A stretch of 64,000 nucleotides of DNA from Polyangiaceae bacterium (GTDB taxonomy: Bacteria > Myxococcota_A > Polyangia > Polyangiales > Polyangiaceae): NCBI GenBank assembly GCA_025936115.1, contig JAICTZ010000005.1:186001-250000 (forward strand), in the 5' to 3' direction. The notes below the pieces were generated by a model. It was not told the DNA's origin, made no database searches, and saw only the letters and a list, made by a program, of their open reading frames with translations. This document shows positions 5,514 to 33,762 of the stretch, piece by piece. The position numbers were made by a program, and so were the translations under genes. Numbering within the stretch: the stretch's first letter is position 1; every line of letters starts with the position of its first letter.

Positions 5514-6536
5514 GTGCCCTCGCGCATCCCCCCCATCCCCGAGCCCGACCCCGAGCAATACCGCGCGGCGCGGGAGCTCGCGTCGCGGGCGTCCGAGCCG
5601 GCCGTCACGGGGAACGTGCTCTTCGGCACGGTCGGCTGGACGGATCCGACGCTGCTCAAAGCCGGCACTTTTTATCCGAAAGGCGCGAAGACCGCGCGCG
5701 ACCGGCTCGGCTACTACGCGCGCCACTTTTCGCTCGTGGAGGTGGCGGCCACTTATTACAGCTTGCTCCCGCGTGAAAACGCCGAGCAATGGGTCGAAGC
5801 CACGCCGCCGAACTTCGTGTTCGACGTGAAGGCACACCCCGTGCTGACGACACACCCCATCGAGGTGGCGCGGCTCCCCGCCGATCTCAAAGCCGCCTGC
5901 GTGCGAGCCGGGTTCGAAGCGCGCGTTTATCCGGCGAAGCTACCCGCCGAGCTGCGGAGTGAAATCGAAGCGCGCTTCCGTGCGTTGCTCGAGCCGCTCG
6001 TCGCGGCCGGGCGGCTCGGCGCCGTCGTGCTGCAGTTTCCCGCGTGGTTCGTGCGAAGTCGCGAGAACATCGCCGAGCTCGAGCGTTTGGCGGCGAGCTT
6101 TCACGACGTGCCGCTCGCCGTGGAGTTCCGGCACGCGACGTGGCTCACCGAAAATAGCCGGCAGCACACGCTCGACTTACTGCGCCGTTCGGCGATGAGC
6201 TACGTCGTCGTCGACGAGCCGGCCGTCGCGGGCGCCGTCCCCGCGGTCGTCGCCGTCACGAATCCGAAGCTCGCGATCGTGCGTTTCCACGGGCGGAATA
6301 GCCGCACCTGGCTCAAGCGCGGAGCCTCCGTGCACGAACGCTTCGATTACCTGTACTCGAAGCCCGAGCTCACGCCGTGGATCGCCTCGCTCGAGACGCT
6401 CGCCGCCGAAGCAGAGAGCGTGCACGGCAGCTTCAACAACTGCGTGCGCGACTACGCCGTGCTGAACGCGAAAGAGCTCTCGGTCTTGGTCGAGGAACGC
6501 CGCGCAGAGGATGGAGCGGTGCCGTCCCCCGCGTGA
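5514..6536 (+). CDS. DUF72 (YecE-like) family protein
   Basis: About 340 aa from a GTG at 5514, chosen because it lies just after the thioesterase stop and leaves the normal family N-terminus; the start is not firm. DUF72 features seen are GTVGWTDPTLLKAGTFYP near residue 45, YYxxHFSLVEVAATYYSLL, FDVKAHPVLT, LGAVVLQFP, and VEFRHATWL. A later segment with FHGRNSRTW and the terminal NNCVRDYAVLNA complete the TIM-barrel-like family signature. DUF72 proteins are widespread; their biochemical role is not established. Probably in an operon with the upstream thioesterase. Confidence 0.8.
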   Translation: MPSRIPPIPEPDPEQYRAARELASRASEPAVTGNVLFGTVGWTDPTLLKAGTFYPKGAKTARDRLGYYARHFSLVEVAATYYSLLPRENAEQWVEATPPNFVFDVKAHPVLTTHPIEVARLPADLKAACVRAGFEARVYPAKLPAELRSEIEARFRALLEPLVAAGRLGAVVLQFPAWFVRSRENIAELERLAASFHDVPLAVEFRHATWLTENSRQHTLDLLRRSAMSYVVVDEPAVAGAVPAVVAVTNPKLAIVRFHGRNSRTWLKRGASVHERFDYLYSKPELTPWIASLETLAAEAESVHGSFNNCVRDYAVLNAKELSVLVEERRAEDGAVPSPA

Positions 6537-6583
6537 GGTTTCCGCCTGTGCCGCGCCGAGGAGGCGCGCTAGCATGCCGGCCG

Positions 6584-7150
6584 ATGCTCAAGGAATTTCG
6601 CGGCAGCTCGGCGACGCGCGCGCGAGCGCTCGCCGGCGCGCTGGCCGTGACGCTCGTCGCACTCGCTCTGCGCGGCTGTGCGACTCACCCGGGGTACGAG
6701 CGACTCGCGAACGGCGATTTGCACGTCGCCTGCAGGGCCCCTCTCGCCAACTGCCTCTTGCCCGTCGCCGACGCGTGCGCGGAGCACGGCTTCGACGTGG
6801 TCACGGCGACCGAGCGGCACGCGAGGACCGGTGCGCCCACGGAACAGGCGGACATGCTGCATTCCGAGGCCACGGTGCGTTGCCGCCGAGCCGTTCCGCT
6901 CTTCGGTCACGATCCGAACCAACCCGTGGCACCCCAGGTCGCGGCCGTGACCGCGTCCGCGTCCGCGTCCGCGTCGCGTGCGGGCCCGCCACGCTGTGTA
7001 CCCGGCGCGAGCCAGGCGTGCGCGATGACGACCGGCTGCTCCGGCGCGCAGGTTTGCGTTGCGGACGGGACGCACTTTGGTCCCTGTGAGTGCGCGGTTG
7101 CGCCGGCCTCGCCCGGTGCCGTGACGACGACGGACGGCGGCGCGCTGTAG
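6584..7150 (+). CDS. Small Cys-containing lipoprotein, function unknown
   Basis: 188 aa from ATG 6584. The N-terminus has a basic region, a hydrophobic core and ALRGC as a lipobox. The mature part contains ten or so cysteines, including an ANCLLPVADAC segment, an Ala/Ser-repeat stretch (a short run of repeated GCGTCC codons near 6955-6975), and a C-terminal half rich in Cys (CVPGASQAC...GCSGAQVC). This last pattern is common in secreted myxobacterial proteins. No enzymatic domain recognised. The gene ends at the left border of the repeat element at 7152, with only a single base between them. Confidence 0.6.
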   Translation: MLKEFRGSSATRARALAGALAVTLVALALRGCATHPGYERLANGDLHVACRAPLANCLLPVADACAEHGFDVVTATERHARTGAPTEQADMLHSEATVRCRRAVPLFGHDPNQPVAPQVAAVTASASASASRAGPPRCVPGASQACAMTTGCSGAQVCVADGTHFGPCECAVAPASPGAVTTTDGGAL

Positions 7151-7151
7151 C

Positions 7152-7526
7152 CTCGAGTTGGTCGATCTTGGAAGACCAGATCGCGATCGGCACGAGAGAC
7201 CAAGAGCTACGTGAAGAACCGGCGAGACCGGCGCGTTGTGGGTCAGTGATCGGGAACGGACGCTGGACTCTGAGCGAGGTCGCCGTGCTCCCATCAACGT
7301 CAAAAAGTCCGCGGGAGGGCTTTCCATCGCCTCACGCGAGTGCGGCGACGGGGCCGACCTGCAAACCACAATGCTCCGGCCTCGCCGGTTTTCGCATGCA
7401 TTTCGGCTTCCTCGACGATCGTGATCTTTCCTCCCGAGACTGCCAAACTCGAGCCTTGTGATCTTTCCTCCCAAGACTGCCGAACTCGAGCGCGTGATCT
7501 TTCGTCCCAAGAGCGCCCAACTCGAG
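7152..7526. repeat. MITE-like element, copy 1, with nested inverted repeats
   Basis: A non-coding 375-bp block bounded by CTCGAGTTGG at 7152-7161 and its complement CCAACTCGAG at 7517-7526. The outer 31 bases of each end pair at 24 of 31 positions when inverted. A second inverted pair lies inside, at 7217-7241 and 7366-7390, matching at 22 of 25 positions. The right arm carries three 36-37 bp tandem units (7421-7530). Sequence of the same family recurs in opposite orientation at 33353-33762. I see no transposase reading frame. The shape (terminal plus subterminal inverted repeats, small size, no gene) fits a non-autonomous mobile or MITE-like element; movement itself is inferred. Confidence 0.7.
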
Positions 7527-7530
7527 TCTA
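7421..7530. repeat. Three tandem 36-37 bp units in repeat element arm
   Basis: Three units, 7421-7457, 7458-7493 and 7494-7530, each starting GTGATCTTTC and ending near AACTCGAG. They differ from each other at a few positions. Single related units close the other copies of the element (about 33486-33514 and 33731-33762) and, inverted, its left end at 7152-7184, so the triplication looks specific to this arm. Confidence 0.75.
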
Positions 7531-7965
7531 GCGCGGTGGCGCACGTGCGCGTGTCGGAAGTCGCACGCATGACGTCGCCGTCGTGATCGCGCGCACCAGC
7601 GTTCGCACGTCGAGCGCGCGTATCGGTTTCGAGAACGTTCTTCTCGAATTCAGGACGACGTGCAGAGGGGAGTCTCGAATCGACCGCGAATTGGCGCAAT
7701 CGGGAGTTGGCCCGAGCGTTGCAATCTCGTTCGGTGTGCGCGCGACGCTCGCGGTGGCGAGGCGGATCGGGCGCTCAACACCTTGCAACGAATCCGCCGG
7801 AACGACCCATCCGGCGGATTCGTTGTCTCTATTTCGAAGGGCGGCATGACATCCGAGTCGCAGCGAGCAACGCGTTCGGGCGCACTCGAGCACTCGCGAG
7901 TCGTCGTGCGTCGCCCGCGGCCGGTGGTTCGGCAGGCGCGCCGCGTGGTGCTACCCTCGGCTCGC
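7527..7965. other. Gene-free stretch after the repeat
   Basis: About 440 bases with no convincing gene on either strand. The one clear structure is the 15-bp perfect hairpin at 7786-7825, listed separately. Confidence 0.5.
7786..7825 (+). terminator. Strong 15-bp perfect hairpin, terminator-like
   Basis: CAACGAATCCGCCGG (7786-7800) is followed by a ten-base loop and its exact complement (7811-7825), then TCTCTATTT. The stem is long and perfect; the U-tract is interrupted. It could end transcription running in from the repeat element or the upstream lipoprotein, or be part of an RNA structure. Confidence 0.45.
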
Positions 7966-32745: not shown

Positions 32746-33459
32746 ATGGATACGTCGCAGTTACTAGCCTTTCAGCGCGTCGTGCGCGAGGGCACGTTCA
32801 GCCGCGCGGCGCTCACGCTCAACATCGGACAACCGGCGCTCAGCGCCCGCATTCAAGCGCTCGAGCACGAGCTCGGCGGCGCGCTCTTCACGCGCGGTCG
32901 TCGCGTCGCGCTCACGCCGCTCGGCACGAGCTTCCTGCCGTACGTGCGGCGCGCCCTCGAGACCCTCGAGGAGGGCGCGCGCGTGGCTCGCTCGGCCGAA
33001 CGTGGTGAGCACGGCCGCGTGACGATCGCGAGCCTCGGCTCGCTCGCCGGCGGCTTGGTCGGACCGGCGCTGGTTGCTCTGCTCCGCGCGCATCCCGACG
33101 TCGAGTGCCACGCGCGCTCGGGCGCTCACGAGTTCGTGCTCGAGCTCTTGTGGGACGGCGTCGTCGAGCTCGGGGTCGTCGCCTGGCCGTGCCACGACAC
33201 GAGCGCGCGCGAGCTCACGGCACTCGCTACGTTCAGCGAGCCTGTCGTGCTCGTGGTTGCTCCCGCCCACCCGCTCGCGAAGAAGCGTAGCGTGAGCTCC
33301 GCCGAGCTCGTCCGACTCGGACGCCCGCTCTTGAAACTGCGCTGGTTCCGCGGGGACTGTTTGACGTTGATGGAAGCACGGCGACCTCGCTCAGAGTCGA
33401 GCGTCCGTTGCCGACCACTGACCCACAACGCACAGGTGCTCGCCGGTTTTTTCACGTAG
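32746..33459 (+). pseudogene. LysR-family regulator truncated by repeat element
   Basis: ATG at 32746 opens a LysR helix-turn-helix (QLLAFQRVVREGTFSRAAL... QPALSARIQALE) and the start of the substrate-binding domain. At about residue 203 (DNA near 33352) the homology stops, and the remaining 35 codons read straight through repeat element copy A, ending at a stop supplied by it. A normal LysR protein has about 300 residues, so the C-terminal third of the effector domain is missing. The protein may still bind DNA but should have lost ligand response. No remainder of the gene is seen on the far side of the repeats. Confidence 0.75.
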
Positions 33460-33514
33460 TTCTTGGTCACTCGTGCCGATCGCGATCTGGCCTTCCAAGA
33501 CCGCCCAAGTCGAG
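33353..33514. repeat. Repeat element copy A (partial)
   Basis: About 162 bp matching the inner-to-outer half of copy 1, in opposite orientation: the stretch running from GACGTTGATGG to the terminal CGAG. It lacks the other arm. It begins inside the lysR gene and supplies its premature end. Mismatches with copy 1 are scattered, so this is not a recent duplication of it. Confidence 0.7.
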
Positions 33515-33517
33515 TCA

Positions 33518-33762
33518 AGGAAGCCGAAACACACGCGAGAACCGGCGAGGTGCATTGTGACTCGCAGGTCGGCCTTGTCGCCGCGCTCGTGTGAGGCGAT
33601 GGGAAGCCCTCCCGCCGAGTTTTTTGGTTGATGGGAGCACGGCGATCTTGCTCAAAGTCCAGCGTCCGTTGCCGATCACTGACCCACAACGCGCCGGTCT
33701 CGCCGGTTTTTCACGCGGCGTGCCGATCGCGATCTGGTCTTCCAAAGATCGCCCAACTCGAG
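33518..33762. repeat. Repeat element copy B (longer partial)
   Basis: About 245 bp matching copy 1 (inverted) from its GGAAGCCGAAA region to the terminal CTCGAG at 33757-33762, with a 16-17 bp internal deletion relative to copy 1 and high identity elsewhere by eye. It follows copy A after three bases and ends five bases before the truC start, so the two copies lie in tandem. Confidence 0.7.

Follow-up and report, generated by a model that had tools for sequence, protein, structure and literature searches.

What kind of sequence is the non-coding block, bounded by inverted repeats, that occupies positions 7152-7526 of the window, the 64,000-nucleotide stretch of a Polyangiaceae genome analysed here? 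The evidence assembled below indicates that it is very probably a copy of a MITE (a non-autonomous DNA transposon), spread by insertion at NCTAGN with a 6-bp duplication of this target and predicted to be mobilised in trans. A preliminary description had placed the block between a tip and its inverted copy, and the window sequence bears this out: CTCGAGTTGG starts at 7152, its inverted copy ends at 7526, and the inverted ends are both tipped CTCGAG. In a repeat search, the outer arms (7143-7185 and 7493-7535) are 74% complementary across 43 nt, and the inner inverted pair, reported earlier as 22 of 25 positions, was recovered at 7217-7241 and 7366-7390 with exactly that count (88%). When the block is folded as one RNA strand together with its flank bases (7146-7532), it forms a long hairpin of -171 kcal/mol (z -4.8; none of 100 shuffles as low).

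The right end of the element has a feature absent from the preliminary description. It consists of three tandem units of 36/37 bp (7420-7456, 7457-7493 and 7493-7529), and the canonical element is thus 7152-7453, or 302 bp, with 7454-7526 comprising two additional right-end copies outside it. Tandem 36-37-bp units at the end of the right arm are present at four loci (L002:1501, L005:1834, L021:1448 and window 7457-7526), which have linker bases in common (AAGG or CGCG), as if transposition had passed the duplicated end on. The features of the window and the locations of two related groups are collected in Table 1. The bit scores given there for the two arms of the window element derive from R1, a sequence-only arm profile of 41 rows, and are not independent, as both arms are among the rows from which the model was built.

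Table 1. Coordinates of the window element, its neighbours in the window and related groups elsewhere (L, locus)
Feature	Position	Strand	Basis
Target-site copy on the left, TGTAGC (one base off NCTAGN)	7146..7151	.	
Complete present insertion, tip to outermost tip	7152..7526	+	
Left arm: tip CTCGAGTTGG and conserved box of ~90 nt (TCTTGGAAGACCAGATCGCGATCG...ACCGGCGAG-ACCGG)	7152..7241	+	R1 model, 79.4 bits; alignment A3
Central spacer, arm to arm	7242..7363	.	
Right arm, box inverted; canonical end at 7453	7364..7453	-	R1 model, 65.1 bits
Extra tandem right-end unit, copy 1	7458..7490	-	R1 model, repeats
Extra tandem right-end unit, copy 2, now the outermost tip	7494..7526	-	R1 model, repeats
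Right target-site copy, TCTAGC	7527..7532	.	
Second family member; distal tip absent where the next copy joins	33515..33762	-	R1 model
Third member, truncated; joins the distal arm of the 33515-33762 member at CCTTGA	33351..33514	-	R1 model
Hairpin-capped insertions	L094-L116, L118, L120 (e.g. L100:3456-3630, L103:3395-3569)		
Subfamily with ACTACT/ACTAATT-type tips	L055:1549, L111:3485, L049:3388-3655, L054:1355-1624		

Related sequences are dispersed throughout the genome to which the window belongs (G000, an 8.06-Mb draft in 83 contigs). Within the window itself, the inverted relative noted earlier at a distance of 26 kb was confirmed and proves to be two abutting copies, 33515-33762 and 33351-33514. 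A BLAST search of the draft with the block and its flanks returned 83 matches at E≤10, among which are 15 near-full-length copies, a count that includes the window's own and leaves out partial ones. These are 67-100% identical to the query: ten of the others are 84-89% identical over nearly the entire canonical element and four more 67-74%. The terminal inverted repeats are common to the copies, and a 33-bp end pattern, allowed up to three mismatches, occurs 60 times in the genome, compared with 0 for the reversed control. When inward-facing tips 40-420 bp apart are joined, 25 paired elements result (24 by script and one, of 59 bp, by hand), spanning 59-375 bp.

Paired copies of this length are too short to hold a transposase gene, in agreement with the earlier claim that the block has no transposase frame. 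A protein-coding role was considered and rejected: the best Pfam match of the scanned frame 7090-7461 is Integrase_DNA (E 0.044), at 14.2 bits relative to a cut-off of 27. Across 16 copies of 285-380 bp, the three forward frames are fully open in 6, 0 and 2 and the three reverse frames in 7, 4 and 4, and thus no single frame is kept.

CTAG lies exactly at -5..-2 of 27 of 50 tips, while the whole 64-kb window has just 28 CTAG. Since CTAG is palindromic, a duplicated target and an inverted tip look alike, and its presence on both sides of many copies could also mean that it belongs to the element ends, no duplication being made. The two possibilities are distinguished by the bases outside CTAG. 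Across all 24 scripted G000 pairs, the positions outside CTAG are identical between the two target copies in 21 of 48 cases, with 13.8 expected (as high in 254 of 20,000 shuffles, p 0.013), a count that retains the 8 pairs in which only 0-2 of the 6 target bases agree. Restricting the comparison to the 13 pairs whose two sides both show a CTAG-like core gives 15/26 versus 9.2 expected (p 0.009). In other genera, a set of 40 loci fetched from four genomes (G250, G028, G020 and G251) gave 15 tip pairs; they were picked by a CTAG-like core on both sides, the outer bases playing no part, and two or three may be chance pairings. Here the outer bases agree at 24 of 30 positions versus 7.7 expected (0 of 100,000 shuffles), and 6 of the 15 pairs are perfect. 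Agreement of flank bases beyond CTAG indicates that the duplication is 6 bp in length, NCTAGN, and directly abuts CTCGAG. The pair that flanks the window copy, TGTAGC and TCTAGC, mismatches at one of six bases.

The same question is informed by sites that lack the element. For 10 paired loci, the two flanks were joined and compared with the 8 genomes of the genus, G000 among them. In three cases the alignment to the sister genome G007 runs through the junction. At one of these, C24:24922, the joined flank with a single copy of ACTAGC aligns to GCTCAGC in G007, a match that argues against CTAG as part of the ends; at the other two (C19:336738 and C22:243382) the G007 junction shows no recognisable CTAG, as would be expected if it were. 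Five further G007 stretches are element-free by the end model (C22:96830, C67:107073, C22:3733, C63:161921 and C80:55104, the last two with just one flank matched in G007), and for the remaining two loci, C13:35962 and C33:366148, no flank match was found there. At C22:3733, G007 reads ...CCCCTAGCACC at the G000 insertion point and already has CTAG, as the stop codon ...CCCCTAG. Together with the outer-base agreement, these sites largely refute the proposal that CTAG is carried by the element, to which we assign a very small probability. Element-free sites thus comprise three aligned junctions and five fetched stretches among the 10 loci, and the insertions look recent relative to the split of G000 and G007, because G007 is without the element at these places. 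The preliminary description had staked its case for a non-autonomous mobile element on the genome holding at least five copies with common ends and target duplications; the 15 near-full-length copies, 60 ends and 25 paired elements, with their NCTAGN duplications and empty sister sites, sustain it.

The TAG of the left target copy, TGTAGC, terminates the open frame 6377..7150 in the window. In G000, TAG ends a long codon-biased frame at 12 of 25 elements. The proportion is 32 of 174 among other CTAG sites drawn from fetched G000 stretches (p 0.002) and 3 of 27 among those of the window (p 0.004). The frame at the window copy does not reach the threshold applied in this count. In the other genera the corresponding figures, 6 of 13 elements and 10 of 28 CTAG sites, do not differ significantly (p 0.38), and the stop-codon preference is evidence at the level of the window's species only.

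Members of the family are also found outside the genus. When 317 genomes of the class were searched with R1 under strict filters, at most 13 candidates being scored per genome, matches were obtained in 38. Seven genomes have at least 12-13 matches each: G000, G007 and G001 (g1), G250, G020 and G251 (g14) and G028 (g22). G005 and G006 (g1) have 4 and 3, with a best E of ~1e-8, and the remaining 29 genomes have one or two at E 2e-5 to 1e-3, which are possibly chance. Counts of the CTAG-CTCGA tip are 66 in G000, 41 in G250, 25 in G028, 13 in G251, 9 in G020, 3 in G007 and 0 in G001, with 0-3 per genome for the reversed control (2 in G001). Given the rarity of the tip in G007 and its absence from G001, the matches in G001 are assigned to the hairpin-capped or another type, as probably are most of the G007 ones. 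A core-pattern scan of the genome contig collection yielded seven stretches, four of them from the sister MAG JAICUB01 and one from a Myxococcales MAG; the other two, in Chamaesiphon and Pseudothermotoga, look like chance. Plasmid, phage and viral collections contained no match to the element.

The forms that these genomes carry differ in size. Most elements in G250 and G028 consist of one unit, 197-202 bp long (at most 229 bp), with the organisation CTCGACTTGGGCAGTCTTG...box...GCCCAAGTCGAG. The box (the first 85 columns of alignment A4, 17 rows) has a mean column identity of 0.85 versus 0.63 for the rest of the 200-bp elements. Small elements of about 49-65 bp carry two tips, and at least two of them are flanked by perfect duplications: GCTAGG/GCTAGG around a 49-bp element at L265 and TCTAGC/TCTAGC around a 59-bp element at G000 C29:36174. 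A further subfamily keeps the inner TCTTGG box and has ACTACT/ACTAATT-type tips, which adjoin CTAG (or CTAA).

Approximately 20 intergenic loci in G000 and G007 contain the same box of ~90 nt with a GC hairpin in place of the CTCGAG tip. At 17 of 21 such loci (including L041, whose excerpt is out of register), the GC-rich hairpin ends 16-18 nt before TCTTGG, and its arms vary between copies yet are complementary; the mean stem score is 21.4, compared with a maximum of 14.9 in 100 single-base shuffles. The box tree groups these relatives loosely. Joined flanks of five hairpin-capped loci were compared with G007, where three are element-free, one (L095) is a shared insertion and one is clearly alignable on the left only. 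At two of the three element-free sites, the extra G000 sequence also takes in several tens of bases that precede the hairpin, which makes the ends assigned there approximate. The hairpin-capped relatives also look like insertions. Several observations accompany this group. Where a contig ends, the hairpin-capped unit forms a tandem array with a spacing of ~172 bp (L106:3456-3755 and L098:1-260), and the break between C58 and C22 probably falls within this array, because in G007 a single unit lies between the two flanking genes. One hairpin-capped insertion adjoins a TPP riboswitch (67 bits, minus strand, L100:3307-3416). At L103, short repeats resembling CCTCTGACGAAAG form an array just upstream of the unit, and the gene that follows it is, judged by eye, presumably leuD-like.

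The strong conservation of the box across genera and the hairpin held at a near-fixed distance before it in ~20 relatives would both suit a conserved structured RNA or a regulatory DNA, repeated for its function rather than by transposition. The comparisons made here make such an origin most unlikely. Sites free of the element exist in G007 for the tip-bearing and the hairpin-capped groups alike, and Rfam has no match to the element or elsewhere in the window; in the nine hairpin-capped loci searched at E≤1 it found nothing but the TPP riboswitch beside one. RNAalifold, moreover, predicted eight pairs for the 200-bp elements, none with changes on both sides, and nine for the hairpin-capped group, one of them changed on both sides, without recovering the hairpin. 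A structured RNA formed by the box was likewise rejected as a candidate: folding of six single units gave a z of -2.8 in one case and values from -1.6 to 0.3 in the other five.

A MITE depends on a transposase encoded elsewhere, and one bearing these tips was sought in several ways. Searches of G000 for rve_3 and rve found no transposase with these ends; they returned one broken IS481, whose ends are of the TGTCAGG type, and one gene that we take by eye to be IS21-like. Frames next to solo ends in G000 (17) and to left ends in G250 and G028 (12) were judged by eye, and none appeared transposase-like. Matches to the IS481 model at E≤0.001 occur in all seven genomes searched, in none of them above the curated cut-off, and the 59 relatives' loci that match this model (30 and 29, most below the cut-off) do not carry these ends, one of them (L304) having a tip match at two mismatches. 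The transposase-bearing relative with the same ends that the preliminary description had proposed to look for was accordingly not found as far as these searches went, in mostly draft genomes (G250, in 5 contigs, is nearly complete). With no IS481 match above the cut-off and no such ends at the 59 loci, we infer the helper family from its target alone.

An entirely different enzyme would be implied if the element were REPIN-like, that is, an inverted pair of short units moved by a RAYT, a Y1 tyrosine transposase, and making no target duplication. The 302-bp type is indeed one unit present twice in inverted orientation, pairs of 49-65 bp exist, and a frame that we take by eye to be RAYT-like (REP-associated Y1 transposase) is present in the genome at L123:2149-3006. 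This frame adjoins a broken IS481 remnant with TGTCAGG-type ends. REP units are hairpins preceded by GTAG, unlike the tips here, and REPINs are not known to make a 6-bp target duplication, whereas NCTAGN is duplicated here over 6 bp. The two short inverted units are thus a likeness to REPINs and REP doublets, while the duplication and a non-hairpin unit of ~90 nt, with no RAYT seen linked to it, are differences that leave a REPIN-like origin with scarcely any probability.

If the element is a MITE, as we consider very probable, a transposase encoded elsewhere is predicted to bind the tip CTCGA(G/C)TTNGG-NNN-TCTTGG and to move the element in trans. Such a helper would be a DDE-type enzyme with an IS481-like target rule. 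The small members suggest that ~25-30 bp per end is enough for transposition and may be what the enzyme needs; alternatively, these forms shrank by deletion after insertion. The 302-bp type may have arisen from the single unit of ~200 bp through head-to-head joining of two left-end boxes, and the window copy is likely such a head-to-head (foldback) derivative. Its tandem end units could have originated by duplication of an end and subsequently moved together with the element, since the target copies abut the outermost unit. It is also possible, though rather doubtful, that the family is modular, with one tip of ~25-30 bp and an undescribed NCTAGN-seeking transposase common to the mini pairs, the ~200-bp units and the 302-bp dimer, the box being kept for an extra function and the siting at stop codons in the window's species sparing genes. 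In such a family, the hairpin-capped relatives would have the ~90-nt box and the inner portion of the tip in common with the other forms, but not CTCGAG itself.

Bacterial MITEs such as Correia/NEMIS, RUP and others are short, non-coding elements with terminal inverted repeats, target duplication, a capacity for foldback and many copies, and the window family shares all of these traits. The target of Correia elements is TA. The present family differs from Correia/NEMIS and RUP in sequence, in its 6-bp NCTAGN target, in a foldback form with arms of ~90 nt and in forms as small as 49 bp. IS481-family elements, for example ISLxc2 and TnRErm46/ISRe46, are reported to target NCTAGN and to duplicate these 6 bp (PMC2516522, PMC6794481), and a gene next to TnRErm46 reportedly takes its stop codon from the TAG of the duplication (PMC6794481). 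The window family duplicates NCTAGN in the same manner. The elements described in those reports have inverted repeats that begin with TGT and encode a transposase (PMC2516522, PMC6794481), whereas the tips here read CTCGA(G/C)TTNGG and enclose no gene.

The MITE kind is itself already known, and the family is a new one, which includes a foldback form, copies with tandem ends and some very small elements. The titles and abstract openings on myxobacterial MITEs, non-autonomous MITEs of IS481 and CTAG-duplicating MITEs contain no description of the element, and the family spans several genera of Polyangiaceae, a group in which, in those titles and openings, no MITE is described as such. The strict target rule, the empty sister sites and the 49-bp forms together allow natural copies to serve as a guide to the shortest ends that the missing transposase would need. 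For annotation, the family serves as a warning: where long hairpins and short open frames recur at the ends of genes in such genomes, they can represent the ends of a transposon.
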